A stretch of 22,400 nucleotides of DNA from a virus, in the IMG/VR virus record IMGVR_UViG_3300045119_000278, positions 1 through 22,400 of that record; one strand, given 5' to 3'. Positions 1 through 19,842 of this stretch are shown here, in pieces. The notes below the pieces were generated by a model. That model was given only the letters and a program-made list of their open reading frames with translations. It made no database searches and was not told the DNA's origin. The position numbers and the translations under genes were made by a program. The stretch's first letter is position 1; every line of letters starts with the position of its first letter.

Positions 1-59
1 GGAATCAGTTAAGTGATGCTACGATTGCTAAGTATACTAGATTTCAGGAGGTGGGGTGA
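1..59 (+). CDS. C-terminal end of a plus-strand protein (partial)
   Basis: One plus-strand frame is open from the window edge to a TGA at 57-59; the visible codons (from base 3) end ...DATIAKYTRFQEVG. The other two plus frames stop within the first 15 bases. The TGA shares one base with the ATG of the next gene (TGATG), the usual arrangement for co-translated phage genes, which is the main reason to call it coding. Only 18 residues are visible, too few to name a function. It shows that a plus-strand operon enters the window from the left and runs towards the minus-strand virion genes. Confidence 0.5.
   Translation, partial: NQLSDATIAKYTRFQEVG
46..51 (+). promoter_or_regulatory. Strong Shine-Dalgarno site AGGAGG for the gene at 59
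   Basis: AGGAGG lies seven bases before the ATG at 59 and only four before the in-frame GTG at 56. The spacing, plus the TGATG overlap with the previous gene, favours the ATG at 59 as the start. Confidence 0.75.
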
Positions 60-394
60 TGGGTGATTGCTGTCCGGATTGTGGATCAAATATACAAGGT
101 CAAGTAATGCATTTGTGTAGTATAATGACTGCGAATGGCTGGAGACAAATAATACCATTACATAAAAGGGGATCAAATTTATTGCCACAACATACTAAAT
201 TTGATTTATGTAAGGAAGATGCGAAGATGTTAGCAGATTGGGAAGAAAAACATAAATATGCTGATGCTATAGTTTGTGATACTAGAACTGGATATCCTAT
301 ACAAGCAATATATAATTCACCTGCTACAATGCATATGAGTGAGAAGGTTGATTTTCTCCATAATATTGCCAAATTAAATTTTGAAGAAGATTAG
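59..394 (+). CDS. Small Cys-rich, probably zinc-binding phage protein, unknown function
   Basis: 111 residues starting at an ATG with a near-perfect Shine-Dalgarno site. The N-terminus has a C-x2-C knuckle (C5, C8; context CCPDCG), with further Cys at 20, 51 and 73 and several His. This suggests a small metal-stabilised domain, but the cysteines beyond the first pair do not form a clean second knuckle. No signal peptide or membrane helix is seen. It is one of the few genes here on the plus strand and follows a plus-strand partial gene with a one-base overlap, so it probably belongs to a different transcription unit from the virion genes. Its TAG stop (392-394) interlocks with the TAA of the converging gene (391-393). 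Family not recognised. Confidence 0.75.
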   Translation: MGDCCPDCGSNIQGQVMHLCSIMTANGWRQIIPLHKRGSNLLPQHTKFDLCKEDAKMLADWEEKHKYADAIVCDTRTGYPIQAIYNSPATMHMSEKVDFLHNIAKLNFEED

Positions 395-750
395 CCCCCA
401 ACCATAACATCAACGTATTCAACCCCCATCAATTTATGCTCACTATAAACTTTCAGCCATATCCGATTTTTGCCCCATGTCAATTTCCTGTATCGACTGA
501 ATACTTTATCACAATCAACCTCCTCCCTAGAAAAGCCGTCACTCCAGACCCAGACAATTTCATCGGGGCACCAATCAATATTACCAATTATCTTCCCAAT
601 AAATTCAACTCCATCAGGCGACAGTAATGCACTTTTTGTGGCTATTAGTTCCAATCGTGGCTTTTCTTCTTGCTGTTTGGATTTTAGTAGGGATTTATCA
701 GGATACGCTAGACTTATGAACAGCAGCGGAAACAAAGAATATCGAAGCAT
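391..750 (-). CDS. Secreted PKD/Ig-like domain protein
   Basis: 119 residues, the last gene of the minus-strand series. Residues 1 to about 18 form a hydrophobic export signal (MLRYSLFPLLFISLAYP) with no lipobox Cys. The rest looks like one beta-sandwich of the PKD/Ig type: a strand GVEFIGKIIG, then WCPDEIVWVWSDG, where the W-x-W-x-D-G turn and the Cys before it are characteristic, a second Cys at ...EEVDCD (a possible disulfide in the periplasm), and a final VEYVDVMV strand. The start is supported by AAGGAAAG five bases upstream. A role on the cell surface or virion (adhesion, or a superinfection-related moron) is inference only. The 5' end is overlapped antisense by the candidate plus-strand zinc-ribbon gene, and the stop overlaps the converging gene. 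Confidence 0.7.
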   Translation of the reverse strand: MLRYSLFPLLFISLAYPDKSLLKSKQQEEKPRLELIATKSALLSPDGVEFIGKIIGNIDWCPDEIVWVWSDGFSREEVDCDKVFSRYRKLTWGKNRIWLKVYSEHKLMGVEYVDVMVGG

Positions 751-871
751 TCTCTTTCCTTGTCGAGTTTGTGGAGGTCTTTACTTCATGGAATTGTCAA
801 CTAGCACTATTGTCAATAATGAAAAGTTATGTCTCGGGTGTTATCAATGGTATCACGAAATCTACCGTTAA
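716..871 (+). CDS. Candidate antisense zinc-ribbon miniprotein
   Basis: A plus-strand frame from ATG 716 to TAA 869-871 encodes 51 residues with two well-formed knuckles, FPCRVCGG and KLCLGCYQWY, separated by 19 residues (C-x2-C-x19-C-x2-C), followed by an aromatic tail WYHEIYR. Two CxxC pairs at zinc-ribbon spacing are unlikely in a random frame, and neither neighbouring minus-strand gene covers 751-867. Evidence against it: no good Shine-Dalgarno site precedes ATG 716 (AGGA lies about 12 bases upstream), and 716-750 is antisense to the PKD-like gene. A later ATG at 788 has GGAGG ten bases upstream but would lose the first knuckle. The longer open frame back to 470 looks like antisense shadow (Ser-rich). 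Its stop interlocks with the minus-strand TAA at 868-870. It could be the last gene of the plus-strand operon. Confidence 0.4.
   Translation: MNSSGNKEYRSILFPCRVCGGLYFMELSTSTIVNNEKLCLGCYQWYHEIYR
793..816. repeat. Direct repeat ATTGTCAA x2, 16-base period
   Basis: ATTGTCAA occurs at 793-800 and again at 809-816; on the minus strand this reads TTGACAAT twice. It lies in the only sizeable gap between minus-strand genes at this end and inside the candidate plus-strand zinc-ribbon gene. TTGACA matches a sigma-70 -35 box, but no -10 hexamer follows at 17 bases from either copy, so an operator pair or coincidence is as likely as a promoter. Confidence 0.3.
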
Positions 872-3875: not shown

Positions 3876-4254
3876 CAATTCTCCTCAGGAGTCCTACTCC
3901 ATTAATTTTATGAAAGTCAAACTTATTAATTAAAATATCAGAAAAACTTAAATTCTCGGTGAAAACATGTAAATCCTGAATCTTCATGTCCTGGCAGACT
4001 TTTACAGCTTGATCCATTAATTGTTTGAAAGATGTTACCTGGACATTCTTTGATCTAGTATGATCAATAACCATCACTGCTTCTGCAAAATGTTTCAGGA
4101 CTCCATAAGCAACCACTTCTTCATTAAAGGTTACTACACTATCTTTAATTACATTATGAAAGACATCTAGATCATATGTTGGATTTTGTTTATAAATCTC
4201 AAGGATTTGAGGGATATCATTTCTGACTGCTGGTCTTTCAGATAGTCCAATCAT
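3868..4254 (-). CDS. GNAT-like acyltransferase fold protein
   Basis: 128 residues. The N-terminus RPAVRNDIPQILEIYKQN is typical of GNAT proteins (an R-x-A opening, then helix 1). It is followed by a beta meander (VVTFNEEVVAYGVLKHF), a core helix with SFKQLMDQAVKVCQDM, a strand DLHVFTEN and the closing NKFDFHKINGVGLLRR. The acetyl-CoA pyrophosphate loop (R/Q-x-x-G-x-G/A) is not intact, so activity is uncertain. I place the start at 4254 because it makes an ATGA overlap with the peptidase gene and has GGGGGGA upstream; the earlier ATG at 4266 has no ribosome site. GNAT-like proteins among phage tail and ejection genes are recurrent, with unproven substrates. Confidence 0.65.
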   Translation of the reverse strand: MIGLSERPAVRNDIPQILEIYKQNPTYDLDVFHNVIKDSVVTFNEEVVAYGVLKHFAEAVMVIDHTRSKNVQVTSFKQLMDQAVKVCQDMKIQDLHVFTENLSFSDILINKFDFHKINGVGLLRRIDG

Positions 4255-4685
4255 TTTTCCCCCCATGAGAAATGGTTATAATCTCCAGCATTATTCTTAA
4301 ATTGTTTACCACAAGTACATTTTGGATCTAAGCTAATCCAATAATTTGAGATTATATCCCATTGAGTACACTTTTCGGGTTGATAAACCCCATTAATATA
4401 GAGGAGAAGATCAGCAGCTAAACCTATATAATGGAAAGATTTTGGTAAATGCACACGATCAAGGAATTTATGTTTGTTTAAATCAGCCGCAATTAAACCT
4501 TGTGGGGCATCCTCTAAAATTCCGGTCCGATCCTGAAACACTTTACCCTCATCAAAAACAAGATCCCAGCCCTGATTTTTCGCCCAAATGATCAACTCAG
4601 CAACCTTATGTGAAAATGCAATTCTATCATCACGTAGCATAAGATGCTCCACTGGAAAAGAAAATTTAGTTACGTCTAGAGACAT
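4251..4685 (-). CDS. M15-family peptidoglycan peptidase (endolysin-like, VanY/D-Ala-D-Ala type)
   Basis: 144 residues from ATG 4685. The zinc-peptidase signature S-x-H-x-x-G-x-A-x-D is present as SFHYIGLAAD (H85, D92), and near the C-terminus DYNHFSWG supplies the third ligand H138 with D135 as the likely catalytic acid. Upstream, LRDDRIAFSHKVAELIIWAK matches the helical N-terminal part of the family. Family members are zinc-dependent LD-carboxy/endopeptidases acting on peptidoglycan stem peptides, as lysis enzymes or virion-associated. The location between tail and ejection genes fits either. There is no signal peptide. A CTCG insert (C123, C125) just before the last ligand is unusual. The start is uncertain: ATG 4706 and TTG 4739 are also in frame, and no candidate has a strong ribosome site. 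Confidence 0.8.
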   Translation of the reverse strand: MSLDVTKFSFPVEHLMLRDDRIAFSHKVAELIIWAKNQGWDLVFDEGKVFQDRTGILEDAPQGLIAADLNKHKFLDRVHLPKSFHYIGLAADLLLYINGVYQPEKCTQWDIISNYWISLDPKCTCGKQFKNNAGDYNHFSWGEK

Positions 4686-4875
4686 AGCAGACTTTGAGAT
4701 GCTCATTATAATGCTTTCGCATAAACTTATCCTGATCAAATTGGGACATAGTATTCCACCAAGCTAATTCATTTGGCAGAAATGCCCAATAAAGTTGATC
4801 ACATTTGTCGCAATTGAAGGTCATGACGACTTTGGTATTAGGATCAGAAGTTATTTCTTTAGTATTGTCGGGCAT
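4666..4875 (-). CDS. Small Cys/His protein, putative zinc finger
   Basis: 69 residues from ATG 4875. It contains C22-x2-C25 (NCDKCDQLYW) and, near the C-terminus, H55-x3-H59-x3-C63 (FMRKHYNEHLKVC), a plausible zinc-binding set; the Trp-rich middle (WAFLPNELAWW) may be a packing core. Starting at ATG 4875 gives a 17-base overlap with the previous gene; AGGAG lies 11 bases upstream, so the TTG at 4881, which has AGGAG at five bases, is an equally good start. The gene end overlaps the peptidase gene by about 20 bases. Family not recognised. Confidence 0.65.
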   Translation of the reverse strand: MPDNTKEITSDPNTKVVMTFNCDKCDQLYWAFLPNELAWWNTMSQFDQDKFMRKHYNEHLKVCYVSRRN

Positions 4876-5470
4876 AACCAAATGCGCTCCTATTTTGATC
4901 AGGTTTTTGTTTAAGCTGAAAAGGTGTAGAGAATCCTGGAATTGTTGAATTTTGAGATTGTTGCATTGGAGATGATTGCCCCATAGGATTTTGTCCAGTT
5001 TGTCCATTCATACCTGGCATTTGTGATCCTGATGATCCAAAACCACCAAGGGATTGATATGCAGTATTTTGCTGCGTACTCATATCAGGTTTCTGCGGCG
5101 CAACTGGAGCAGCAGGTTGTTGATTCTGTTGACCATTAGGGAACCCAGGAATCTGACTTTGATTTTGACTCTGATCTACATATGGAGCCATTCTAGGATC
5201 ATTTGTGCTCAGACATTGATGCTGGCCAAATGCAAGTGTCCCAGGAGGGCATGCATCAGGATGCTCAAAATCTCCTTGAATTGGTTGACCATTAGCATCT
5301 AGTTTATCGCTCTTGTATCGTTCATAGCCTTTAGCATTAGGATCTACAAGATTATCTTGAGCCCCCCACCAATCTAAGGGTTTAGAACTATCAACTTGAG
5401 TATATCCATACCATGCAGTATCAGATACTCCAGGAGGTTTAGGACCATTAGGATCAGGACCAACGCTCAT
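4859..5470 (-). CDS. Pro/Gln-rich low-complexity phage protein, unknown function
   Basis: 203 residues. The first 95 are Asp/Pro/Trp-rich with paired cysteines (HPDACPPGTLAFGQHQCLS). From about 98 to the end the chain is Gln/Pro/Ser/Met-rich and almost certainly disordered. There is no membrane helix or signal. The start at 5470 has GAGGAG eight bases upstream and an ATGA overlap with the preceding zinc-binding gene. It lies between fibre-tip and lytic-enzyme genes, which suggests a virion-associated accessory part, but nothing in the sequence proves that. Confidence 0.65.
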   Translation of the reverse strand: MSVGPDPNGPKPPGVSDTAWYGYTQVDSSKPLDWWGAQDNLVDPNAKGYERYKSDKLDANGQPIQGDFEHPDACPPGTLAFGQHQCLSTNDPRMAPYVDQSQNQSQIPGFPNGQQNQQPAAPVAPQKPDMSTQQNTAYQSLGGFGSSGSQMPGMNGQTGQNPMGQSSPMQQSQNSTIPGFSTPFQLKQKPDQNRSAFGYARQY

Positions 5471-5700
5471 AATCTATGCTCCTCAAAATCAAAACTTGGG
5501 CCACATTTAATAGGTTTGATAAACTGTTTCACGAACGCTATACCCCTACTGAACAAATTATCCCGGCAATCACCACAAATCCAGGCTGAACAAAAATTAC
5601 AAAGAAGCAAAGATTTCTTCATTTTTGCACAGACACAACAAATACCAGTTTTAAATCCCATGACCATAAAATACTGGGGAATATGCCGTCGCCACGACAT
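5467..5700 (-). CDS. Small cross-brace-like zinc-binding protein
   Basis: 77 residues. Cys spacing is C21-x2-C24-x9-C34-x2-C37-x4-C42-x2-C45 (ICCVCAK, LCNFCSAWICGDC), with a further Cys at 66. Six regularly spaced cysteines with a C-x4-C-x2-C step resemble the first part of RING/FYVE-type double-zinc folds. Start 5700 has GGTGGGG six bases upstream but overlaps the C1q-like gene by 50 bases; ATG at 5667 or 5661 would shorten the overlap but lacks a ribosome site. The stop makes an ATGA overlap with the next gene. Function unknown; such small fingers usually mediate protein or nucleic-acid contacts. Confidence 0.65.
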   Translation of the reverse strand: MSWRRHIPQYFMVMGFKTGICCVCAKMKKSLLLCNFCSAWICGDCRDNLFSRGIAFVKQFIKPIKCGPSFDFEEHRL

Positions 5701-6172
5701 TTAATGCCCCACCAGAATTTTGCTTAACCCAAACTTCTATATAATCACCAGCTATAAAAGCATAATCCATCGACAAACTCATTCTTAAAGCTGCCCATTC
5801 TGTAGCTGCGATGATTGTTGTACTATTCAAAAGAAAATAAACTACTCTAGTCCCGATAGTTAAATTCGCCCACTCAATATTTGCCCCAATGTTATAACGC
5901 CCAGCAGATTTGATAGTAATCCGATTATTTTGAACCGTAGTTTTATGATACCCATCATCATAAGTTTCGCTATCAAAAGTGAGCATTGTATCGGTATTAT
6001 TGGGAATACTGATATTTGCGCTATTAAAGACTCTCCATCCTGGGTTAATTGATGTATCAGTCTGAATAGTATTTACAGCCTTAATCAATCTCTCTAATAA
6101 TTCATAGAGAGGCTTATCTAACTTTCCCTGCTCAGAAAGTAAAAGACGATTTAGAATCGCAAAATCGCTCAT
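5651..6172 (-). CDS. C1q-like beta-sandwich tail protein (putative receptor-binding tip)
   Basis: 173 residues. A short helical N-terminus (1-40, LYELLERLIKAVNTIQ), likely a trimerisation or attachment segment, precedes a C1q/TNF-like jelly roll: WRVFNSANISIPNNTDTML, TFDSETYDDGYHKTT, RITIKSAGRYNIGANIEWA, a central RVVYFLLNSTTIIAATEW and the final GDYIEVWVKQNSGG...VFYGHGI. These phrases follow the usual order for C1q-like heads found on phage fibres, which are trimeric and often bind the receptor. It is adjacent to the nozzle-like gene with an ATGA overlap, with AGGGTG just before the ATG. The fold call is fairly safe; receptor binding is inference. Confidence 0.75.
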   Translation of the reverse strand: MSDFAILNRLLLSEQGKLDKPLYELLERLIKAVNTIQTDTSINPGWRVFNSANISIPNNTDTMLTFDSETYDDGYHKTTVQNNRITIKSAGRYNIGANIEWANLTIGTRVVYFLLNSTTIIAATEWAALRMSLSMDYAFIAGDYIEVWVKQNSGGALNVVATAYSPVFYGHGI

Positions 6173-8694
6173 GCACCCTGCAATAGAATAGCTACAGTTT
6201 TCGTATCAGTTAAAGGCCCACCAATACCAGTATTTCCAAGATCATTAGCAATACATGTCAAAGTCATACTGTCTGATGGAGCACCTAAAGTATTATGAAT
6301 AGCCATATTATTCAATGCAGCATTAATATTGACTAGAGTTCCACGAATAACCATTGTATGCGTCCCATTAGCACCAGACATTACTGTAATTCCAGTAGTG
6401 GATGTTAATGTTAAATTACAATTATGGGAACCATCAAATGGGGTTACAGTTAGGCTTAGTTGTTCTATATTACCACCAGAATCAACATCATCCATAGTGA
6501 TAGCAGTACCTTCATCAGATGTGAAATGTCTAGTTCCGCCAGTAGTTAGCAAAATAGGAACATTATCCCCAGTTGGAACGGTTAAAACTGGTGCAATATT
6601 ATGGATTTCGCAAGAAGCTTTCTTCATTAGTGGCCTAAAATTGAAAATCTTTTTGATATAAAGCCTAATCTTCTGTAATAAAAATGAGCTATTTACCATT
6701 TTAGTACCAGCATTTTCACGGACGGAGGAAAAGATTACTCGGAATGCTTCATCTTTATAATTTGCTAACCATTCAATCTCTGAGTGATATTTTTCAGTCG
6801 CGCTTTGAGCAGCTAAAATGGCATCTCCAAGATCAACTGTATTATTCTCCTCTAAATTAGTAATAGAGACATTAATACACTGCTCAATCTCGATAGAATT
6901 AGTATTTTGAGATATCCTAGCTCTAATAGTTCCTAAATGAAAAATCCCATCAGCCTCATCCTGATTGATACCAACTAAAGATGTAGAATAGTGAGAGGTA
7001 AAATTCTCCTCAGCAATTTGCGCTGTAGCATCTCCCCCAATTTGACCCAAATTTGCAAAATTACTATCAGGGACTAAAACTATAGCTTGTAAACTAGAAT
7101 TATCTATGATAATTTGGATCCAATCAATAAAATTATCATTAGCAGGCCATTGCGATTTATCTAGATCCTCATAATAATTCCACTCAGACCATCGAATTGA
7201 TTTAGCATCCAAACCTTTAGCATAATCGCCAACTAAAAATCTAGGTCCTAGATTACTTGTCTGAGTAGTATCAGTGACAATTATTGAAACATAAATAATT
7301 TTGGCTATAGGATCAATCTTGACTTGTGTACGATTGAACAAAAATGCAGTTGGACCGGCATTATTTGTTAACCAAAAATCTTCAATTTTGTAAGTTAATG
7401 CTGGTTTTTGAATGACTCCATTAAATAGATAAATCCCTGAACGGTCTGCTAAAATATAGGCATCAGAGCTTGTCGAATCTCCATAGTATACTTCTCCAAC
7501 ACCAAAAATCTCAGTTCCGACAGAGCTATCCACGTCAACAACTTCCCATTCTGCCGGCTCTAATCCATTATCCCGTACTACTTTTGTTTGCCGTTCCTTA
7601 TGGATCATCAGATTACCACGGAATGCGACGCATCTTTTTGCTTGACCTAAAGAGTTAACGCTAATATTTAGTGAACAATCGGATGCCTGAAATGATTCTG
7701 GTTTCCCAGGTTGGGAACCTTTGATGCTATTCGGATCATTTGGATCACCCCAAAGTATCATTCGCCCATTATACTCACACATGCCGAGGACTGATACTTG
7801 GGTCTCTTCTAAATCTTTAAGATACTCCGCGGAATCTACTAAATCAGTTGAGAAATAGTTTACAGCCTGAACTGTCGTGGTATTATCAGCAATATGTCCA
7901 CCAGGGATAAAGAATAATTCATAGCTGTCAACATCTGCCCCAATGGTTGGAAATACTTTAGAGGATAATAAATATCGTCCAACAATTCCTGATGGTCCAG
8001 TTGGGATACCATTAAACTGTAAATTCTTTGCCCCAGCAGCAGTTTTAACTGTTCTATTCCCTACAGCCTGTGGAGGCGTAATAAATCCAGATGCAGTTTC
8101 ATATGCAACTGCTAAGACATATTGCCCAGCATCGACATTTCCGGCTGATGGTTCAGTTATGCTCGATGTAGCCGATGCCGGCTTTAATCCTAATGCATCC
8201 CGTGTAACATTTGTCCCATCCGATGCATCATAAACCTGCATCGGAATCTCAGCATCACCAAAATCTCTAAAATGGAAAGAGATATAGGCGCGATTGTTCA
8301 TATTTAAGACAGAAAAATCAACGTGTAAGCTTGGGTGAGTAAATCCAGATGTATCAAAAATAGCATCTGCGTCGTCAAATCCTAATTTACTGTCAAATAA
8401 TTTACCATCAGAATAGTAAACTAATAACCGTACCTCAGCAGGGATAAAAACGCCATCAATGTGCCCTGAAATAGTATAAGGATGAACACGATGGATGGTT
8501 TTTCCTGCCCGATTATCCGAATCGGAGGTATCAATGTATGTAGAGAATGGAGGACGTGATTTTACACCTTTATCTAAAAACGCACAATTCTTCTCATCTG
8601 GAGAATGATCTACGGGGCAAGATTCCTTCTCACCCCGAGACCATTTGCCATTAAACTCACTTATTACTACAGCTTCATGAGTTCTCGTTGACAT
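6169..8694 (-). CDS. Tail nozzle-like protein (tail tubular B type) with C-terminal cadherin/Ig-like domain
   Basis: 841 residues, the largest gene in the window. Residues 1-690 are beta-rich. The N-terminus has the phrase CPVDHSPDEKNCAFLDKGVKSRPPF, shortened here to PDEKNCAFLDKGVKSRPPF, like the opening of nozzle and tail tubular B proteins; later come CEYNGRMILWGDPNDPNSI, RCVAFRGNLMIHKERQTK and repeated DRSGIYLFNG-type blades, consistent with a propeller-like tail tube tip. Residues about 700-841 are a separate domain resembling cadherin-like bacterial adhesin repeats (INAALNNMAI, then LTCIANDLGNTGIGGPLTD). It follows the head-tail adaptor and fibre genes, as expected for a podovirus tail. 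The start overlaps the previous stop (TAATG), with GGAAG upstream. Function is assigned by order and motifs, not by search. Confidence 0.7.
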   Translation of the reverse strand: MSTRTHEAVVISEFNGKWSRGEKESCPVDHSPDEKNCAFLDKGVKSRPPFSTYIDTSDSDNRAGKTIHRVHPYTISGHIDGVFIPAEVRLLVYYSDGKLFDSKLGFDDADAIFDTSGFTHPSLHVDFSVLNMNNRAYISFHFRDFGDAEIPMQVYDASDGTNVTRDALGLKPASATSSITEPSAGNVDAGQYVLAVAYETASGFITPPQAVGNRTVKTAAGAKNLQFNGIPTGPSGIVGRYLLSSKVFPTIGADVDSYELFFIPGGHIADNTTTVQAVNYFSTDLVDSAEYLKDLEETQVSVLGMCEYNGRMILWGDPNDPNSIKGSQPGKPESFQASDCSLNISVNSLGQAKRCVAFRGNLMIHKERQTKVVRDNGLEPAEWEVVDVDSSVGTEIFGVGEVYYGDSTSSDAYILADRSGIYLFNGVIQKPALTYKIEDFWLTNNAGPTAFLFNRTQVKIDPIAKIIYVSIIVTDTTQTSNLGPRFLVGDYAKGLDAKSIRWSEWNYYEDLDKSQWPANDNFIDWIQIIIDNSSLQAIVLVPDSNFANLGQIGGDATAQIAEENFTSHYSTSLVGINQDEADGIFHLGTIRARISQNTNSIEIEQCINVSITNLEENNTVDLGDAILAAQSATEKYHSEIEWLANYKDEAFRVIFSSVRENAGTKMVNSSFLLQKIRLYIKKIFNFRPLMKKASCEIHNIAPVLTVPTGDNVPILLTTGGTRHFTSDEGTAITMDDVDSGGNIEQLSLTVTPFDGSHNCNLTLTSTTGITVMSGANGTHTMVIRGTLVNINAALNNMAIHNTLGAPSDSMTLTCIANDLGNTGIGGPLTDTKTVAILLQGA

Positions 8695-10231: not shown

Positions 10232-10247
10232 GAGGCACAATTGCCTC
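10232..10247. promoter_or_regulatory. Short intergenic hairpin GAGGCA-CAAT-TGCCTC
   Basis: A perfect six-base-pair stem with a four-base loop in the 36-base gap between the adaptor and fibre-like genes; one arm includes part of the adaptor stop codon. There is no T-run on either strand, so it is not a convincing terminator. It might be an mRNA processing or stability element. This gap is wider than most junctions in the left part of the module. Confidence 0.35.
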
Positions 10248-10914
10248 AGATCAATCTACGATAACCTTGTTTGAATTTAGAACTATAACGTTTTTGTCTT
10301 ACCGGATACGCCTGATTATCTTTAACAGCAATAGCTAAAAGAAGTTCCATAGATTTATCAGCATCCTGATTCAAACTATCACTTCTTTCCTGATCCTCAC
10401 CCATACGTAATGCCGCTAGTGCTGCTGTTCTATAACCAAGATAATTTTGAGCTTGTAAGTAAACAATCGGATCATCATGTGCTGAAACGTCAACAATCAA
10501 TCTCTTGTACCATAGCATTACATCTCGATTTGCTGTGGAACCTAGAAATTTGATGAGATTTTCTTTGAATGTCCAATATCTTAAGAGTTCATTTTGAGTT
10601 TCAATCGGTAAAGTCTGAACTCTCTCCATATGTAACCAATTTTCAGGAGTTGTATCACTCTCCTGAATTTCCATCATTTTTTCTGGAACTACCAAATCGG
10701 TAGGCTGATCATCATCTAAATCTAATTGTCCCGCAGGAACGGTGATACGAGCTGATACAACTTCCAACAATTGGACATCATTTACCAATAATTGAGCCTC
10801 CAAATCTCGCATAGCAATCTGAGCATAAACTAATAGATTAGTTAGCGAGAATAGAGTCCCATCAGAATCATTCAAATGAGCCTGGGCATCGGTAATGATG
10901 TCATCTAATGTCAT
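10246..10914 (-). CDS. Head-to-tail adaptor (tail tubular A / gp4-like connector)
   Basis: 222 residues. It opens with MTLDDIITDAQAHLNDSDG, LFSLTNLLVYAQIAMRDLEA, the helix-loop-helix start common to phage adaptor proteins that dock under the portal. PTDLVVPEKMMEIQESD and NELLRYWTFKENLIKFLGS (a conserved P-x-D-L ... W-x-F-x-E-x-x-I-x-F pattern) follow, then LWYKRLIVDV and a C-terminal helical bundle (YLGYRTAALAALRMGEDQER). The basic C-terminus (KRYSSKFKQGYRR) could insert in the portal clip. The start forms an ATGA overlap with the upstream gene. The product should form the ring joining the portal to the tail nozzle. Confidence 0.75.
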   Translation of the reverse strand: MTLDDIITDAQAHLNDSDGTLFSLTNLLVYAQIAMRDLEAQLLVNDVQLLEVVSARITVPAGQLDLDDDQPTDLVVPEKMMEIQESDTTPENWLHMERVQTLPIETQNELLRYWTFKENLIKFLGSTANRDVMLWYKRLIVDVSAHDDPIVYLQAQNYLGYRTAALAALRMGEDQERSDSLNQDADKSMELLLAIAVKDNQAYPVRQKRYSSKFKQGYRRLI

Positions 10915-11141
10915 TGCGCCTCACTAAAGTCTAGATAATATGACTTTCCAGGCTCAAAATGGTCTTCTCTGACTGTTGATACTTTAAGACTTCCTGTAGG
11001 CGTAGATCCAAAGAATTGCTTATTCTCTTCGGAATCACCAGTTACAGCAGAAAATTCAGCTTCATATAAAAATGGAGAAGTACCAGTCCACCCTTTATAT
11101 TTTCTTACTGAAGTACAAGTAAACTTAGCTCGTGTATTCAC
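10911..11141 (-). CDS. Small conserved phage protein, unknown function
   Basis: 76 residues beginning with GTG 11141; AGGTG lies five bases upstream and the start forms a GTGA overlap with the previous stop. It begins NTRAKFTCTSVRKY, continues ENKQFFGSTPTGSLKV and ends FEPGKSYYLDFSEA, a pattern I have seen in small proteins next to connector genes of many phages. All-beta by appearance, with no motif for catalysis. Probably a virion-assembly accessory, but its role is not known. Confidence 0.7.
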   Translation of the reverse strand: MNTRAKFTCTSVRKYKGWTGTSPFLYEAEFSAVTGDSEENKQFFGSTPTGSLKVSTVREDHFEPGKSYYLDFSEAQ

Positions 11142-11743
11142 TTTTTCACCTCAGGCATCAATTCCGGCTTCAAAACTTGCTTACAGGTAAAGCAGATAAT
11201 TGCATCCGGATCAACCGAAGTCTTACAGAATTTACAATTGACTTTAATATCCTCAGCCTCCATCATCCAGGGGCGATCGAGATTTAATTCCCGAGCAGCT
11301 AATCGTGCATTATCAGCAATTAATGTATGCCGGCCAGGATTTCGTGCCCATTCCTCATCGGCTAATTTTACCAATTCAATGAACCATTCATTTTGCATCT
11401 TTTTAGCTGATTCAATCTGAGGCTTATATTTAGCTTTGATTTCAGGGACAGAGATATCACCCTCGACAAAGAATAATGCAGGTTGTCTTTCCCCAGGAGC
11501 GATAGCATGAGCAGTATCGAAGATATAATCACCGATAATTGACTCTGCCATTCGTCGGGAATCAGTCGTCACTTTAGTCGGGGGCATATCTTCTTTACCA
11601 TCAACATAATGCACCGATGGGCCAATGGTAAGAAGTCCGGGATCATCATTCTTTGCAGCAGGAATTAGAAATTCCCCAGGATAGATCCCATTGTGCTTAC
11701 GAAAAATGTCTTTCTTAAAATATGATACGATTGTACAGTTCAT
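11138..11743 (-). CDS. Conserved phage protein with C-terminal zinc ribbon
   Basis: 201 residues from ATG 11743 (GGAG seven bases upstream; TGATG overlap with the previous gene). The N-terminal two thirds has no recognised fold; it includes PGEFLIPAAKNDDPGLLTIG and a helical segment ESAKKMQNEWFIELVKLADE. The C-terminus carries a clear zinc ribbon C170-x2-C173-x10-C184-x2-C187 (CKFCKTSVDPDAIICFTC) followed by a short basic tail. The arrangement of a helical body and terminal ribbon is found beside capsid genes in other phages, as far as I recall, without a known role. Likely a virion or assembly factor. Confidence 0.7.
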   Translation of the reverse strand: MNCTIVSYFKKDIFRKHNGIYPGEFLIPAAKNDDPGLLTIGPSVHYVDGKEDMPPTKVTTDSRRMAESIIGDYIFDTAHAIAPGERQPALFFVEGDISVPEIKAKYKPQIESAKKMQNEWFIELVKLADEEWARNPGRHTLIADNARLAARELNLDRPWMMEAEDIKVNCKFCKTSVDPDAIICFTCKQVLKPELMPEVKK

Positions 11744-12279
11744 CAATTTACTCCAGGAGCAATTATAGCCGATCCATCACGCAGTTGCCCCGACAGCGTT
11801 GGTGAATTTTCTTCGATTTTCATCATGTCTTCTACTACGTCTTTTTCGTCCATTTCCGCTTCCATACGATCCAAATCTGCCTGTGTCAGTTTCTCTTTAG
11901 TTGCAAAGAGACTTGCAATGATACATTTTACAGCTTGCCAAATTGGATATTGATACTCTTCATTCGGAGTCTCAAATTTCCAAATAATCTCATAACTGCC
12001 ATTCTCAACACCAATTAATTCTGGACTCCAATGCCGATACTTCGATGCTGGGAATGTCAATCTTTCTAGAATCCAACGATCACGAATCCAGGGATATTTA
12101 TGTCTATCCTTACAAACTCCAGTAGTCTCCCGAAGGAAAATAGGACCATAGAATTCTCGAAAAGTGCCCCATCGAGTTTCTAATTGATCATTCGACCAGA
12201 CAATTCGGAATAATGGTCGCTTGTCGTCATTTACTCCGAAATGTTTAACCAAAAGTTTGTTAATTTCTTCTACTGTCAT
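11743..12279 (-). CDS. Conserved phage head-module protein, unknown function
   Basis: 178 residues. The characteristic phrases are LFRIVWSNDQLETRWGTFREF, shortened here to FRIVWSNDQLETRWGTF, then KYPWIRDRWILERLTFP, SYEIIWKFETPNEEY and a Pro/Trp segment YPIWQAVKCIIASLF. These occur in proteins lying between capsid and connector genes in many podovirus-like phages; no function is known to me. The C-terminus is acidic (EAEMDEKDVVEDMMKIEE). No good Shine-Dalgarno site precedes ATG 12279; instead a GC-rich hairpin (12286-12316) ends just before it, so initiation may depend on RNA structure. Confidence 0.7.
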   Translation of the reverse strand: MTVEEINKLLVKHFGVNDDKRPLFRIVWSNDQLETRWGTFREFYGPIFLRETTGVCKDRHKYPWIRDRWILERLTFPASKYRHWSPELIGVENGSYEIIWKFETPNEEYQYPIWQAVKCIIASLFATKEKLTQADLDRMEAEMDEKDVVEDMMKIEENSPTLSGQLRDGSAIIAPGVN

Positions 12280-12674: not shown

Positions 12675-13922
12675 TCAATATCCGGTCGGAACTGAGAGAC
12701 CAGAGATGTATGAACAAATCGCCGGATTTGATACGAAAGTATTGAATACTGCAACGATATAAAATATCGTCGAAGTAGCAACACCACCAGAAGCACCACG
12801 AGTCTCAAACATCTTACGGCCATCCTTAGACTCGAAGAAATCAACCGGGCGCATTTCTGCACGGCCCCAAACCTCAGGAACAACGAAGTCAATACGAGTC
12901 TTATCCCATGAAAAATGCGTTTTGACTGATGCTCCAGCCATTTGCATATCATCACCAAAGTAAAGATCAAGAGCTTCATCTTTAGCTTGCTTGTGAATAA
13001 GACTTACCAATTGACCCAATTGCTCATAAGCCTGTTTCTGGCAAGGATGCATCCATGCAGTGGTTTTTTCCATATTGTCCATACCAACACGATCACCAAT
13101 CTTGTTTAGTGCAAGACGGGCAAAAGGTAGGGCCAAAGGACCACCAGCAGCGACGCTATTTGCACGAATCTCTGGTGTCGTACTTCTATCAAATCCGAGC
13201 CATGTACCAGTTGATGCACTATTATGATGATAAGGAACACCCTGTAGCCAAACAGGAGGAGTAGCAGACAATCCTTCCACAACAACCTTATCGCCAGCAG
13301 TCAATCCAGCAGTCGTAGCAGTCTTGATTTGCTTATTCGGACCATCAAAATAAGTGATAGGACGAGCATTGTTTGTAGTACGGTTCGTAGCTAGAGTACT
13401 GTCATAGTAATTGACATTCTGACCATATCGGACTAGACGAGCGCCGAATCCATCAGAATTTAGAGTAACAGTATCAACACCACCAGAGTTACTAACCGCA
13501 GAGACAGTCCCAAGAACACCATCACCTCCAGTTAAGCATTGGCTGTCAATCTGCTTTCTCATCTCCTTCATTGACGTAGCGACAATACGCTGGAATGTCT
13601 TGACGACACCCTTTCGAGAGTCATCATTTCCCCAATCTGACTTTGCGGTAAACTCAAACGCAATGCCCATCGGAAAAGTAGACACTACAGCTTTGTCATA
13701 CGTCGGACCATCGCCACGACCTAGATCTCCACCATCAATATCAATGGCGCGAAACTTACCCCCCGGTCGAAGTTCCAAAGGAACTCGCATATCTCTCGTC
13801 GATACAACTTCAACATCCTTCTTCTCAATAGTACTATAAAAAGTTGCATCTCGCTCGAATAATGTAGGGAGCAATTTCCGCACATTTTCGATTTCGACAG
13901 CAACAACTTGTGCCGAATTCAT
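12675..13922 (-). CDS. Major capsid protein, HK97 fold
   Basis: 415 residues. The N-terminal segment LLPTLFERDATFYSTIEK and the block STRDMRVPLELRPGGKFRAI then GGDLGRGDGPTYDKAVVSTF are familiar from podovirus-like major capsid proteins, leading into the HK97 E-loop/P-domain region. The long helix RKGVVKTFQRIVATSMKEMR is the spine-helix candidate. C-terminal segments include KTTAWMHPCQKQAYEQLG (P-domain) and FFESKDGRKMFETRG. Product: the shell subunit, assembled around the scaffold encoded directly upstream. It starts three bases after the scaffold stop, with AGGGA nine bases upstream lying inside the end of the scaffold gene. No protease domain or cleavage site was seen. Confidence 0.88.
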   Translation of the reverse strand: MNSAQVVAVEIENVRKLLPTLFERDATFYSTIEKKDVEVVSTRDMRVPLELRPGGKFRAIDIDGGDLGRGDGPTYDKAVVSTFPMGIAFEFTAKSDWGNDDSRKGVVKTFQRIVATSMKEMRKQIDSQCLTGGDGVLGTVSAVSNSGGVDTVTLNSDGFGARLVRYGQNVNYYDSTLATNRTTNNARPITYFDGPNKQIKTATTAGLTAGDKVVVEGLSATPPVWLQGVPYHHNSASTGTWLGFDRSTTPEIRANSVAAGGPLALPFARLALNKIGDRVGMDNMEKTTAWMHPCQKQAYEQLGQLVSLIHKQAKDEALDLYFGDDMQMAGASVKTHFSWDKTRIDFVVPEVWGRAEMRPVDFFESKDGRKMFETRGASGGVATSTIFYIVAVFNTFVSNPAICSYISGLSVPTGY

Positions 13923-13925
13923 ATA

Positions 13926-15113
13926 TTATTTCCCTTTGTAGTTAATCTTCCCACTCAGAATATCTGCGTCGGAAGTACGACGGTAATCAATATTTCTAGG
14001 ATCTAGAGATTTAGTAGAACTTCCAGAATTCCCAGAAGTTGGTATAAATTTCTTTTGCGACTTATTAATTTCATTCTTGTTGCGTTTCTCTTGCAGATAC
14101 TCCGAACGGATTTTCTGTCGCGCAGGATTGATCAACGGTTTTACACGTGCTAGGAACGTGTTAATGATTTTTTCACTAGCTTCCGGCGAGAATCCATTGT
14201 CAGCGGCAGATTTGAATAAAGAATTCATTGTGGCGAGATATCGTTTATCGCTTCGTAGCACATCTTTGATCTCTTTTGCAGTGTCAGCAGCGATTGCATC
14301 TCTCATTTTGGGAGACATTGTGTTTTCTGGATCTAGTCCATTAGAGATAGCCGCTGTTAAACGCTTCTCTGCGGATACAGAGATCCCATTCTCAAAATAT
14401 GACTGCTTGGATGACTCAAAATCCTTCTGCTTCTTTTCCAATTCAGTCTGTTTTTGAAGAATCTCAGGAGGAGGTGCAATGTCATCTGGGATATTAGGAG
14501 AATTAAAGATGCGCTTTGAGATATGACCTACTGAATAGTAAAGATCCTGATTTCCATTGGCTTTTGCTTCTTGTGCAATTGCCCGTAAGATATTTTTTAC
14601 TATTGGAGTTGCTACTTGATTGTATAATGCCGGAGCATTCTTCTCAAGCATTGGGACGAAATCTACAGCAAATTTAACTGCTGCATTTTCGTCGGCTCTT
14701 GCAATCTCCTCAAGAATCGTTTTCGGATCTCCTGCTAAAGCTGCTTCCCGGATCAATTCAAATCCAGCGATAGTTTCTTGTGCCTCTTTCGCAGCTTCTA
14801 CATTTGGAAAAACTGTAGTGATCTGCTGTGCAAGGGCAATCTCTTTACGTAATTCAGGAAATTCCTTAAAAATCTCAGGATGCTTTGCTTTTAGTTTCTT
14901 GAATAATGATGGGTCATCGAGGTTTTCATCAACCTCTGATTCCTTTTCTCCATCATCCTCTTGCTCTCCCTCTGAATCAGTATCTCCAGTAGTCTCTTCT
15001 CCAGATTCATCATTTCTAGTATCTTCACTACCATCAATAATGGTCTTGTCTGGATCTCCCTCATCGGGCACCCCTTCGGCTAGAATATCCATGTCTGAAC
15101 TATCCGCACTCAT
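13926..15113 (-). CDS. Capsid scaffolding protein
   Basis: 395 residues between portal and major capsid genes, the classic scaffold position. Residues 1-65 are strongly acidic (SGEETTGDTDSEGEQEDDGE). The centre is helical (e.g. EIALAQQITTVFPNVEAAKE) with a Lys/Glu coiled coil around 215-240. The C-terminal 60 residues are basic (LQEKRNKNEINKSQKKFIP), as expected for the helix-turn-helix that binds capsid subunits. No protease motif appears, so this is a pure scaffold rather than a fused protease. Its ATG shares one base with the portal TAA (TAATG), with AAGGA nine bases upstream. Confidence 0.8.
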   Translation of the reverse strand: MSADSSDMDILAEGVPDEGDPDKTIIDGSEDTRNDESGEETTGDTDSEGEQEDDGEKESEVDENLDDPSLFKKLKAKHPEIFKEFPELRKEIALAQQITTVFPNVEAAKEAQETIAGFELIREAALAGDPKTILEEIARADENAAVKFAVDFVPMLEKNAPALYNQVATPIVKNILRAIAQEAKANGNQDLYYSVGHISKRIFNSPNIPDDIAPPPEILQKQTELEKKQKDFESSKQSYFENGISVSAEKRLTAAISNGLDPENTMSPKMRDAIAADTAKEIKDVLRSDKRYLATMNSLFKSAADNGFSPEASEKIINTFLARVKPLINPARQKIRSEYLQEKRNKNEINKSQKKFIPTSGNSGSSTKSLDPRNIDYRRTSDADILSGKINYKGK

Positions 15114-17440
15114 TAATTTAATCCTTCTGGAGCTTTCATTTTCTGAGCCTGCTCAAGCTGCTGCTGTTGCATCAATTGCTGTGGGTTTAACTGAATGTTT
15201 ACTTCTTTTGCCATCTGTACTTGTCCATCTGGGGGTAAATCTTTGAAATTGATACTCTGTGATGGAGGTTTAGTCTGTGGGGGAGCCGGAGGAATTGATT
15301 GCTGATGCTGCTGATAATGCTGCTGGATCAATTGGTATGCTTGAGGATTAGATACCTTCAAATTCTGACCAACATCACCAACCATGAATGCCTTGATGAC
15401 CTGCATGTGTATATTAGGATCATCAAATTCATCAATCTGAGCCGGAATTCCGGAGATCATCTCATAAATCTCTTTGAGTTGTTTATCTCTATCGCTATCT
15501 CCTGGGATATACAATTCACTCAATCCGATCATCTGCCATGCCATATTGATATTCTCAGGATGCATAATAACCTGAAGCAATTGGGGATTGGGAGGTTGCT
15601 GATTCAAAATCTGCATAAACAATTCCCGTCTCTGCTGCCATGCTACCGGAAGTTGCTCAGAATTGTCAATTACAATATCTCCAAGTTTGCCAGTCGTATC
15701 AATCTTCTTGATCCAAACATTAATGAATGATGTCCCACCCAAAGGTTTTGTAAAATGCTCATCCTCAATCATATTATTAATGAAAAGCATTACTGCCTTT
15801 TTCATCGTTTTGCCCCATGCGGAGGCTAATGATTTCCATGGGATAGAGAGTCTTTGAAGGGCGTTTTCATTACTTTTTTGGTATTCTCCGAGAGTTCTAG
15901 AACCACCTTGAGGACCACCATAAATGCTAGGAAAAGAACCAAGAACAAACTGAGCAGACTCAGTAAGATAAGAATTGAAAGGCTCAATGCTCTGTGAGAG
16001 TGTGCTTGGCTGGGTACTTGCAAAAGCAGAATCCAAAGATTGTCCAGCCCGTGCCTTTGCAGGAATGAAATCCCCAGGTGATGCATGATGATTTGCCAAT
16101 TCTGGAATATTTACAACTTGGGGATCGGCGAAATTGATAGAAATCCCTGTCTCAATTGTCTCCATCGTTAGATTGACTAGATCATTGAGCATTCTTTGAA
16201 TCGGAATCAGAACATTTTCCAAAGGATCAGCATGGATGTACTCAGATATTGCACATTCGGTGACTGTCCAGCAATCATCTAGAGATTCATCGCAAACTTC
16301 GGCTAAATCGTCATCATTAATCCACACAGTATAGCAGCCATTTGGGAATGCTTCCTTTAGAAGAGCAATCTGATTCTCATCATACAATCTATTGAACATC
16401 CAAGGTCGGAACCATAGACGGGAAACTGTAGATAAATTCTGCCCCTCATAGAATGGCTGATCCGCCGGAGTTCTCGCCTGTCTATCGTAGTTATTCTTAG
16501 GATATCTACCAAAATTGAATCCTGGATAAATCTCCTTTACCAATGCCTGATCTAAATCAGTATCAAGTTTGATATATCCTGCCTGATCCAAATTTTTAAC
16601 GAAAAATGGAACAGTGACATGCATTGGACCATAAACTTCAATGACTGATCTACCTTTCGGAGATTCATCCCATGAATGTATATATGGGATTGTCTCAGAA
16701 GTCTGACTTTCAACAGGAACAACTTCATTTTGACAATTGGGACAAGCTACAGATATCCCAGGCATGCTTTCCAACGGCTCATCACAAATTGGACATGTCT
16801 GCTGTGAATTTACAATAGTTTTGGTATCAATAACCGGAGTCCTGACAATGCCAAATTTCTTATCTCGATTATAGATGTTATAAGTGAATGCTAATCCATG
16901 GGTATAAAGATGATAGAGCATCTTGATGATTCTCAACGGCGCATCATTATACCCCTGGATTAGTTCACTTATTACCTGCGCAGCCTTCGCGGTTGCAATA
17001 TCATCTGGATTGTCTGCATCAGCAGGGGTAAACTTAGTATTGGGGATATTAGCAGAAAGCGCAGCAATAATAGCCTCACCATGAGCCCTACAGATATTAA
17101 TACATCGTTCGTAATCTTCATAGTCTATATCTTTGAACTCATCCATTCCTGCTAAATCTTGGAGAGTTACATAATCGTGAGCAATCTCTGAGAAGATCCC
17201 ACGTTGAATACCTTTGAAAAATGCCTCATTACGACGCCAAATTGGAATCTGCCGATTCCGCGTCATGTGTGATTCTCTATCCTGCTCATCTTTAATTGAT
17301 TTTAGAGCAGATTTGAGCTCATCCGGGAATGTTTTCCAATCGTAATAGTGTAGAGATGGGTCGAAATTATTTTCCGGAGCTTGCGCCTCAGTTTGGTTAA
17401 TCGTCGGATGATTCTCAGTCTGAGGCGTATCTTCTATCAC
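15113..17440 (-). CDS. Portal protein, P22-like, with inserted zinc ribbon
   Basis: 775 residues, the long portal class. The N-terminus is polar and disordered; RNRQIPIWRRNEAFFKGIQR begins the folded part, followed by helical wing and stem regions (LYHLYTHGLAFTYNIYNRD; LIPIQRMLNDLVNLTMETIE). SAQFVLGSFPSIYGGPQGGS with RTLGEYQKSNENALQRLSIP is a typical portal phrase near the tunnel. Residues 216-236 hold C-x2-C-x13-C-x2-C (CPIC, CPNC), a zinc ribbon inserted in the wing. The C-terminal 90 residues are Gln/Pro-rich and resemble the barrel/tail extension of P22-like portals. It starts with GTG 17440, four bases after the previous stop, with GGTGA close upstream; the weak start may limit the amount made. 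The product forms the dodecameric DNA gate. Confidence 0.85.
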   Translation of the reverse strand: MIEDTPQTENHPTINQTEAQAPENNFDPSLHYYDWKTFPDELKSALKSIKDEQDRESHMTRNRQIPIWRRNEAFFKGIQRGIFSEIAHDYVTLQDLAGMDEFKDIDYEDYERCINICRAHGEAIIAALSANIPNTKFTPADADNPDDIATAKAAQVISELIQGYNDAPLRIIKMLYHLYTHGLAFTYNIYNRDKKFGIVRTPVIDTKTIVNSQQTCPICDEPLESMPGISVACPNCQNEVVPVESQTSETIPYIHSWDESPKGRSVIEVYGPMHVTVPFFVKNLDQAGYIKLDTDLDQALVKEIYPGFNFGRYPKNNYDRQARTPADQPFYEGQNLSTVSRLWFRPWMFNRLYDENQIALLKEAFPNGCYTVWINDDDLAEVCDESLDDCWTVTECAISEYIHADPLENVLIPIQRMLNDLVNLTMETIETGISINFADPQVVNIPELANHHASPGDFIPAKARAGQSLDSAFASTQPSTLSQSIEPFNSYLTESAQFVLGSFPSIYGGPQGGSRTLGEYQKSNENALQRLSIPWKSLASAWGKTMKKAVMLFINNMIEDEHFTKPLGGTSFINVWIKKIDTTGKLGDIVIDNSEQLPVAWQQRRELFMQILNQQPPNPQLLQVIMHPENINMAWQMIGLSELYIPGDSDRDKQLKEIYEMISGIPAQIDEFDDPNIHMQVIKAFMVGDVGQNLKVSNPQAYQLIQQHYQQHQQSIPPAPPQTKPPSQSINFKDLPPDGQVQMAKEVNIQLNPQQLMQQQQLEQAQKMKAPEGLN

Positions 17441-17444
17441 TTAA

Positions 17445-18287
17445 TCACCGATTAACAGTATAAGGACCAACGCATGCTTGGCTATTCAAAAGAATATTTC
17501 CAGAAGGACATACTCCAATATCGTACACTTTCGGATCATTTAGATCATTAGGATCTTTACAGGTATATGCATCACTAGGCATGCATACGACATAAGACCC
17601 ATGCCCAGCAATGATTCCATTATATGGATCTGGCCGATTTGTTCGAGGAGTCCATGAAATGCTGCCAGATACAGCATGCACATCAAAATTGATTACACTA
17701 TCCCAAAGTCTTCCGCTACAGACATAATACATCACAGTTACCCATTTGCCAATTTTGGGTTCAAATACAGCAGATGCCGCACCTTGATCCGCATACATAT
17801 GATCACAAGCTAATCCCATACCTGGGGGATGCCAAAATGCAGGTGAACAATTATTTCCACAAGCAGGAGTAAAATTAATCATGTCCGGAATTGTTAATTT
17901 CATCCAAATATTAAATTCGCAGACTCCAGTAGCAGGATTCACTGAATTTGGATTAGAAGCATCACAACCATTAACGAAATCTACAGTTGGAGGAGTTTGA
18001 CCTTTTGGAGCTGGTGTATTTGTTGGTTTGGAAATGGTTGGGATTAATGTCGCTGTTACCACAGGCACTACCGTCGCCGTGGGTGCTGCTGTAGCTGCCT
18101 GAGTGGCTGTAGGACGAGCCGAAACGCAATAAACGCTCTGGCATACCCGGACCGTTTCAGGGTTCTTATAGAGGCTACAGGCGTCGCAGGAGGTCACTGG
18201 AGGAGCAGGAGGATTTCCCGGGCAGGATGCCCCGATGGAAATAATGGATAAACCAATTCCAAATAGATAAAACTTAAGTTTGCTCAT
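17445..18287 (-). CDS. Probable secreted lipoprotein with Thr/Pro/Ala linker, Cys-rich
   Basis: 280 residues. The signal is KLKFYLFGIGLSIISIGASC, with C22 a likely lipidation Cys, although Gly at -3 makes the lipobox imperfect. A small Cys cluster follows (C34, C37, C49, C54), then a Thr/Ala/Pro spacer (about 58-97) and a C-terminal domain with many paired Cys and aromatics (PACGNNCSPAFWHPPG; GKWVTVMYYVC), probably disulfide-bonded outside the cytoplasm. It lies downstream of the TM/coiled-coil gene and upstream of the portal, with ATGA overlap. It could be an outer-membrane partner (o-spanin-like, though far larger than usual), a superinfection-exclusion lipoprotein or a virion part. Not recognised. 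Confidence 0.65.
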   Translation of the reverse strand: MSKLKFYLFGIGLSIISIGASCPGNPPAPPVTSCDACSLYKNPETVRVCQSVYCVSARPTATQAATAAPTATVVPVVTATLIPTISKPTNTPAPKGQTPPTVDFVNGCDASNPNSVNPATGVCEFNIWMKLTIPDMINFTPACGNNCSPAFWHPPGMGLACDHMYADQGAASAVFEPKIGKWVTVMYYVCSGRLWDSVINFDVHAVSGSISWTPRTNRPDPYNGIIAGHGSYVVCMPSDAYTCKDPNDLNDPKVYDIGVCPSGNILLNSQACVGPYTVNR

Positions 18288-18821: not shown

Positions 18822-18839
18822 TCAAATACCCCAAAAGTT

Positions 18840-18884: not shown

Positions 18885-18891
18885 AATACAT

Positions 18892-19209: not shown

Positions 19210-19212
19210 ATT

Positions 19213-19347
19213 CTACCTTAACGGCAGGCACCCCATTAATCCTGCAATGGATGCAAGAAGAACAGGAACCCAAAGTGGACATTTACCGATAGCTGAAATT
19301 ATGGTTCCTATAAACGCCGAGATCCATAAAATACACACTATTGACAT
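19213..19347 (-). CDS. Hidden 44-residue membrane protein with two helices (holin-like)
   Basis: 44 residues from ATG 19347 to TAG. It is almost wholly hydrophobic: IVCILWISAFIGTIISAIG, a short GKCP turn, then LWVPVLLASIAGLMG and a basic end LPLR, so it is a helical hairpin. GGAGG (19355-19359) lies seven bases upstream, the best ribosome site in this block, and is itself part of the stop region of the preceding gene. The following gene begins three bases after the stop. Tight packing, strong ribosome site and helical hairpin make it a convincing gene despite its size. It may be a holin, antiholin or small membrane modulator acting with the two-helix protein upstream. A competing Cys-containing frame at 19088-19282 lacks a ribosome site. 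Confidence 0.7.
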   Translation of the reverse strand: MSIVCILWISAFIGTIISAIGKCPLWVPVLLASIAGLMGCLPLR

Positions 19348-19351
19348 ATTG

Positions 19352-19687
19352 TCACCTCCCTGTGTACGATTCGACTGGCTTCTTTCCTACCCCACCAATA
19401 GCTGAATGATTAGTGCGAGAAAAGTAGAAACCAACGATTAAAAATAGTGATGAAGATAGAATTACAGGGAAATCATTCAATCCTCTACCAACTATTCCAT
19501 CATAGACAGCAACGATCATATTTGAAAGGACAACAATAACTGCAATTGCTGATTGAGTATACTCCCAGACTAGATTGACTCTTCGTTGTCCTGCGGCTAC
19601 TAAATCCTCTTGAAATGTAGTAACAGCAGGCATTGATGGGTCAGTCGATTGAGTTTGTACATTTGGTGCGATAATAGGAGTACTCAT
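19352..19687 (-). CDS. Two-helix membrane protein, putative holin
   Basis: 111 residues. Residues 1-35 are polar, RRVNLVWEYTQ precedes helix 1 (about 46-66, AIAVIVVLSNMIVAVYDG), and helix 2 (about 73-90) is FPVILSSSLFLIVGFYFS. The end RTNHSAIGGVGKKP is a phrase I recall from small phage membrane proteins next to lysis genes. Two helices, small size and charged tail fit holins of the two-TM class. The ATG overlaps the previous stop (ATGA), and no separate Shine-Dalgarno site is visible, so translation probably depends on the upstream zinc-finger gene. Holin function is inference from topology. Confidence 0.65.
   Translation of the reverse strand: MSTPIIAPNVQTQSTDPSMPAVTTFQEDLVAAGQRRVNLVWEYTQSAIAVIVVLSNMIVAVYDGIVGRGLNDFPVILSSSLFLIVGFYFSRTNHSAIGGVGKKPVESYTGR
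19355..19359 (-). promoter_or_regulatory. Shine-Dalgarno GGAGG embedded in the end of the upstream gene
   Basis: The last codons of the holin-like gene (GGG AGG TGA) also form the ribosome-binding site for the 44-residue gene, seven bases before its ATG at 19347. The site both supports that gene and implies coupled translation of the two membrane proteins. Confidence 0.75.
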
Positions 19688-19842
19688 TTAATGTATTTAA
19701 TATCCAAAGGTTCTAGATGTAATATTTTTACTGTCTCTTCTAAAGTTTGGATATGCCTTTTGCAGACAAAAACTCCCATTGTATCAAACCAGGACAATTC
19801 TGCAATCGCATTTTCCTCACACTTCTCAATCTCGCATCTCAT
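19684..19842 (-). CDS. Hidden 52-residue zinc-finger protein
   Basis: 52 residues, ATG 19842 to a TGA that shares ATGA with the next start. Ligand pattern C3-x4-C8-x18-C27-x2-H30: MRCEIEKCEENAIAELSW, then GVFVCKRH, followed by an amphipathic helix (TLEETVKILHLE). This is a compact single-zinc module. The frame fills the gap between two clear genes exactly and begins 16 bases inside the previous one. The ribosome site is poor (AAAAGCG), so coupling to the upstream gene is likely. Function unknown; similar short CCCH modules in phages may bind nucleic acid or protein. Confidence 0.65.
   Translation of the reverse strand: MRCEIEKCEENAIAELSWFDTMGVFVCKRHIQTLEETVKILHLEPLDIKYIK

Follow-up and report, generated by a model that had tools for sequence, protein, structure and literature searches.

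Portals rank among the best-studied phage proteins, and those of SU10, N4, P22 and T7 are without any Cys-x2-Cys (CxxC) pair. Here we describe a 22.4-kb virus record (IMGVR_UViG_3300045119_000278, positions 1 to 22,400; "the window" denotes this whole stretch of DNA) whose portal protein, in contrast, is predicted, like the portals of its clade, to carry a zinc ribbon in a wing hairpin, and in which a neighbouring gene, 11138-11746, encodes a 202-residue protein with a second such ribbon at its C-terminus. In predicted fold, the window portal resembles those of SU10, N4, P22, T7 and phicrAss001 (best chains, Z 21-25), and the window shares with P22 and SU10 the gene order terminase large subunit (TerL)-portal-scaffold-capsid. 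The nearest virion zinc known from our literature search is a putative site in the capsid protein of Patience-like mycobacteriophages: in the accessible part of that report (PMC10635136), a metal site, which its authors take to be zinc, is found in a conserved tailed-phage virion protein, as the window ribbons are predicted to be, but it lies in the capsid protein's A domain and not in a portal or neck protein, and the capsid proteins of the window's clade are without two CxxC pairs. The tailed archaeal virus HFTV1 also has zinc in its virion, modelled in tail proteins; in the portion of the source available (PMC12494034), however, the assignment of the metal rests on coordinating histidines, and the sites, in the tail fibres and a predicted deacylase, are not four-Cys ribbons. 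In a related virus group, the herpesviral packaging accessory factors ORF68/BFLF1 belong to a paper in which, as far as its excerpted text goes (PMC7889075), "zinc finger" is a frequent term, but the protein is a separate ring-forming one and no portal. A full-text literature search for phage or portal together with zinc found no portal zinc ribbon in titles and abstract openings, with subscription papers mostly uncovered; this null does not prove absence.

The clade was sampled by scanning viral contigs with portal and TerL patterns, which gave 119 loci (L001-L119); in the portal scan of viral contigs, the best 80 of 134 loci were kept. In a 49-row alignment, their portals were 28-37% identical to that of the window. 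None of 50,697 phage records matched the window portal at E 1e-5 and no PHROG did so at E 0.1; a scan of bacterial and archaeal genome contigs with the portal alignment returned no locus. The lineage is uncultivated and has a short-tail-type head and neck set, comprising TerL, portal, scaffold-like protein, putative capsid and a candidate SU10-type adaptor.

The portal motif reads C216-x2-C219-x13-C233-x2-C236 in the translation. All four Cys columns were filled in 107/109 portal open reading frames (ORFs) longer than 550 residues, with gaps in the other two, and the four Cys are among the 70 columns of the portal alignment conserved at 90% or more. At 90% non-redundancy they were kept in 68/70 portals, and in 79/81 after addition of 11 portals from contigs found through another gene. 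Most portals show the CPxCG form of the knuckle: among 79, Pro follows the first Cys in 56 and 55, and Gly the second in 59 and 56, at the two knuckles. Spacing within a knuckle is two residues with three exceptions, and the loop between the knuckles ranges from 8 to 106 residues. Pro, Gly and Glu abound in this loop, whose Lys+Arg content is 2.4%, as opposed to 9.4% in whole portals.

The ribbon was also found where the searches had made no use of it. A ribbon peptide was one of six patterns in the first portal scan, which yielded only L001-L003; the patterns of the remaining portal/TerL, 11138-family and capsid scans lay outside the ribbons. Scanning with an 11138-family pattern of this kind yielded 30 loci, all but one of which were new. 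The ribbon was present in all 23 complete portals of these loci, 12 of which were on previously unseen contigs (one further locus held a portal fragment and five had no portal), and the 11138-type ribbon in 29/29 copies. A capsid-protein scan of bacterial and archaeal genomes added seven loci. In these loci or their genomes, both Cys pairs were present in 5/5 portals and 6/6 11138-type proteins; in G017 the portal and the 11138-type match were on separate contigs, and in the L304 genome neither gene was found.

The AlphaFold model of the window portal (mean pLDDT, the predicted local distance difference test, 81.5; 82-90 in the ribbon region) has the portal fold, with Foldseek E down to 1.5e-14 and VIA Z 19-27 with portals among the matches listed. 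In this model the ribbon lies at the tip of a long beta-hairpin formed by strands 198-215 and 243-261. Because of the order of helices in the model, by our own reading and not a computed assignment, the hairpin would be in the wing, with residues 412-431 as the putative stem helix and 503-515 as the putative tunnel loop. PDB sequence searches with the portal and 11138 family profiles listed no portal and matched mostly at the ribbons; among the matches at the portal ribbon, zinc fingers and zinc-ribbon proteins predominated, for the most part with E above 0.01.

The second ribbon, C171-x2-C174-x10-C185-x2-C188 in the translation, closes the 202-residue protein. Cys 171, 174 and 188 were present in 33/34 members of this family, the window's included, the remaining member being cut by a contig end; residue 185 was Cys in 32 of the 33 ribboned members and His in one. 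Over all loci, with the Cys-to-His member counted as ribboned, 47/48 distinct full-length copies carried the ribbon, and the exceptional copy has a C3H variant, C-x2-C-x9-C-x3-H. The family was found in 13/13 long contigs searched, and 9/33 members matched Zn_ribbon_3 at E 0.01 or better (best 4.4e-5). The model of the 202-residue protein had a pLDDT of 92.5, and its finger superposed on NZF/RanBP2 fingers at 1.0-1.2 Å over 24-25 residues, with non-significant E values of 1.4-2.2. From their sequence, both ribbons probably bind zinc.

Most window genes are on the minus strand. The order is TerL, portal, scaffold-like, putative capsid, 12328, 11743, 11138, 10911, adaptor-like and a tail-like gene, and a tRNA search of the window found none. 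The features considered here are:

20004..21632, minus strand: terminase large subunit (TerL); phrog_979, E 2.3e-48; PF03237, E 3e-10
15113..17440, minus strand: portal protein, 775 residues; portal fold of the model; predicted zinc ribbon at residues 216-236, flanked by predicted strands 198-215 and 243-261
13926..15113, minus strand: scaffold-like protein, named from gene order alone; family conserved in the clade
12675..13922, minus strand: putative major capsid protein, from gene order and an Acidobacteria homologue that matches phrog_14242 major head protein, E 3.1e-4
11138..11746, minus strand: 202-residue protein between the capsid and adaptor genes; predicted C-terminal zinc ribbon at residues 171-188
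10246..10914, minus strand: SU10-adaptor-like protein; PF24175, E 1.4e-5
6169..8694, minus strand: tail or nozzle-like virion protein; an Acidobacteria homologue matches phrog_3287 virion structural protein, E 2.4e-13
19684..19842, minus strand: small ORF with C-x4-C-x18-C-x2-H, not conserved
5467..5700, minus strand: small ORF with six paired Cys, not conserved
4666..5007, minus strand: small ORF with one CxxC plus H/H/C, not conserved
716..871, plus strand: small ORF with two CxxC, gene uncertain as an antisense ORF overlaps, not conserved
56..394, plus strand: 112-residue ORF with a single CxxC, a weak candidate for a zinc module, not conserved

In the window as in the long contigs, the portal gene sits between the terminase and the scaffold/capsid genes. 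The top identity of TerL was 35.6% among the phage-record matches listed, and the adaptor-like protein scored 26.1 bits against PF24175, for a cut-off of 27, with residues 1-196 of 222 aligned. Given its position between the capsid and adaptor genes, 11138-11746 may encode a head-completion or neck protein that belongs to the particle. No member with two CxxC pairs was found in the TerL, scaffold, capsid, 12328, 11743, adaptor, 6169, 21629 and 19352 families.

Three other window genes on the minus strand were seen in passing. Adjoining the portal gene, 17445-18287 encodes a 280-residue protein that has 15 Cys, begins like a lipobox protein and includes a Thr/Pro-rich stretch; it looks more like a secreted lipoprotein with disulfides than a zinc protein, and no homologue was found in the 119 loci. 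The product of 4251-4739 has a weak Peptidase_M15_4 match (E 0.011, under the cut-off) and is possibly an endolysin, which would be a zinc enzyme if real. The 111-residue product of 19352-19687 has a hydrophobic middle and homologues in L074 and L062, and looks holin-like.

We counted double-CxxC genes, defined as having two CxxC pairs within ~110 residues, in the clade and in other phages; the gene caller misses small Cys-rich ORFs, and a gap-filling pass was added in the same way for all lineages. The clade (84 of 119 loci after dereplication) held 136 such genes, or 1.27 per 10 kb, against 0.13 in the HMO-2011 lineage (66/80 loci), 0.49 in the KBurrousTX lineage (8/8) and 0.28 in the phiM6 lineage (15/19), controls that are partly marine, of which two are small, and whose loci were trimmed at 10 kb from the query gene. 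With the portal and 11138 families set aside, 32 of the 136 clade genes remained, or 0.30 per 10 kb, inside the control range (the family tallies of 76 portals and 30 others also count the window's own two). In 12 long contigs, the stretch from TerL to tail (150 kb; in G005 contig ends cut this module) held 23 double-CxxC genes, 1.54 per 10 kb, of which 22 belonged to the two families; without both, the figure was 0.07. The rest of the same genomes (415 kb) held 41, or 0.99 per 10 kb, and ten stretches of named phages, with that of phi29 being its whole genome, gave 0.24 per 10 kb. CxxC was absent from the portals of the control lineages (0/57, 0/14 and 0/8) and of named phages (0/7, plus 0/4 more including SU10). 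The original prediction had proposed an unusual density of zinc-binding modules in this virion module, on the premise that such modules usually carry none or one. The control lineages agree with the premise, and the TerL-to-tail excess over all three of them (1.54 against 0.13-0.49) and over the ten named-phage stretches bears out the density itself, but it is the work of two families and not of many.

We consider it probable, with moderate confidence, that the two conserved ribbons, in the portal and in the 202-residue protein, serve as structural staples at head-neck contacts. A single zinc, gripped by the two CPxCG knuckles of the portal, would close the tip of the long wing beta-hairpin, and the portal ring, which has twelve subunits in known portals, would then present about twelve such knobs. 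In the 202-residue protein, a second zinc ribbon would end the chain. Zinc would in both cases hold a small rigid knob, and the knob would make a protein-protein contact in the head-neck assembly, the candidate partners of the portal being the capsid, the scaffold or a loop of the adaptor, and that of the 202-residue protein a neck protein. A protein contact fits because the portal loop is Pro/Gly/Glu-rich and poor in Lys+Arg. The capsid, scaffold and adaptor are candidates because, in the available part of the SU10 report (PMC9509320), the wing contacts the capsid and the embracing loop of the adaptor reaches a wing loop. The variant is moderately surprising, in that a portal family with a conserved ribbon occurs together with another ribbon protein encoded by a neighbouring gene.

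Four observations weigh against the staple interpretation. The branch formed by L036 and L037 lives without a portal ribbon, so the ribbon is dispensable there; the two make up a single branch (support 1.0) inside a clade of 14 tips (support 1.0, midpoint root), which makes a single loss the simplest account. Profile comparison of the portal with that of SU10 at residue level fell short of significance. The window's two ribbon proteins reached 15.5-16.1 bits, below Pfam cut-offs of 27-27.3. Finally, the main domain of the 202-residue protein matched no known structure significantly, and Foldseek with its model gave nothing at E 0.001 in PDB and BFVD, which does not make its fold new. A search for more portals of the L036/L037 kind returned L036's contig again and L037, and none further; the two portals (L036 8295-10505, L037 4248-6485) are without both ribbon and loop, and neither contig reaches the 11138 gene.

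Zinc ribbons frequently bind nucleic acid, and the two ribbons could instead do so here, for instance at the genome end or on DNA packed round the portal. A precedent is found in the accessible text on SU10 (PMC9509320), where DNA wraps the portal and Lys3 and Lys5 of the wing touch that DNA. The portal loop is, however, Glu/Pro-rich with little Lys+Arg, a composition for which we rejected DNA binding as the main reading of this loop; the argument extends to the portal only, and for the 202-residue protein the alternative stands. Overall we regard nucleic acid binding as unlikely.

Thiol-disulfide proteins share the CxxC motif, and since the clade proteins are Cys-rich, the pairs could also be redox or disulfide elements and no zinc sites. 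This is very unlikely in our estimate: both pairs are kept jointly, giving a set of four Cys that bears the CPxCG signature, the PDB profile matches at the portal ribbon are mainly to zinc fingers and ribbons, albeit mostly at E above 0.01, and Zn_ribbon_3 is matched within the 11138 family at E 0.01 or better, as given above.

The original prediction had counted at least seven Cys/His modules of different design and taken them as a sign of a lineage that uses zinc knuckles widely in assembly. Most of the motifs are there. The spacings are as described for the portal, for 11138-11746, for 5467-5700 (C21-x2-C24-x9-C34-x2-C37-x4-C42-x2-C45) and for 19684-19842 (C3-x4-C8-x18-C27-x2-H30); that of 716-871 (C-x2-C-x19-C-x2-C) is present in an uncertain gene, overlapped by the antisense ORF 391-750. 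In 4666-5007, one CxxC is followed ~30 residues on by H-x3-H-x3-C, a plausible zinc module, and 56-394, with one CxxC and scattered Cys/His, is a weak case. Conservation of the cysteines separates the portal and 11138 modules, which have it, from the five small ORFs, which do not: at E 1e-3, 0/5 had homologues among the 119 loci, and NCBIfam returned nothing for five of the Cys/His ORFs and 11138. Four of them (56-394, 716-871, 4666-5007 and 5467-5700) lie outside the TerL-to-tail stretch. Wide use of many knuckle kinds in assembly, with all seven modules included, can draw on the two conserved virion-module ribbons and on single look-alikes of 5467-5700 (in L039, right after its 6169 homologue) and of 19684-19842 (in L012). 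With five of the seven lacking homologues, and only one of the 23 TerL-to-tail double-CxxC genes outside the two families, we give it little credence, and a single seven-gene zinc system was rejected on the same two counts. What holds of the proposal is the use of two conserved ribbon proteins.

Small zinc ORFs are of an ordinary kind in phages. The phi29 gene 16.6, annotated as a YgiT-type zinc finger gene, resembles the window's five unconserved ORFs, as do the CxxC proteins of haloviruses, which in the part of the source available (PMC7911831) are common, often of small size and encoded for the most part outside the assembly module, whereas the portal and 11138 ribbons are inside it, in conserved proteins. 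At the window's left end, ORFs alternate and overlap on both strands between 56 and 871 (56-394 plus, 391-750 minus, 716-871 plus), and these cannot all be real genes. A different Cys-rich small protein (HKY..., several Cys pairs) recurs in long clade contigs (L120 4300-4665, L126 8108-8395, L131 1948-2301, L136 16706-17020, L138 11700-12011 and L142 12696-12980); it looks like a conserved multi-finger family, and at least some copies lie outside the TerL-to-tail stretch.

A functionless product of general Cys-rich composition is extremely improbable and already contradicted: Cys makes up 1.01% of clade proteins as compared with 0.48-0.57% in the control lineages, but shuffled proteins of the same composition gave 0.00-0.02 double-CxxC genes per 10 kb (0.02 in the clade's own shuffle as against 1.27), the four portal Cys stand in columns conserved at 90% or more, and the nine other conserved families have no two-CxxC members, so chance or composition was rejected.

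Among the seven records found by the capsid scan, five had Acidobacteria titles; the others, from Bacteroidetes and Pacearchaeota, are on contigs of less than 10 kb and could be stray phage. One relative of the window phage (L309 and L322, on contig C19 of G019) lies on a 294-kb contig of an Acidobacteria metagenome-assembled genome, where glycerol kinase, CobB, SdhA and PurH are encoded ~45-70 kb off on both sides. Bacterial housekeeping genes on both sides are what an integrated prophage would show. Acidobacteria are likely the host phylum of the wider group, which is not proved since contigs of metagenome-assembled genomes can be misbinned or chimeric.

The clade-wide portal variant allows recognition of a group of uncultivated phages whose portal is missed by PHROGs and Pfam portal families, and the portal and 11138 ribbons together form a paired signature of the clade. 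It also poses a testable question, namely for what purpose a portal wing would require a metal-stapled knob. That the two co-conserved ribbons make up one zinc-dependent head-neck docking system, meeting directly or through a common partner, is a tentative idea that we hold to be quite unlikely; if it were true, vertex assembly in the clade and its Acidobacteria prophage relatives would be zinc-dependent and could be a metal-gated assembly checkpoint.

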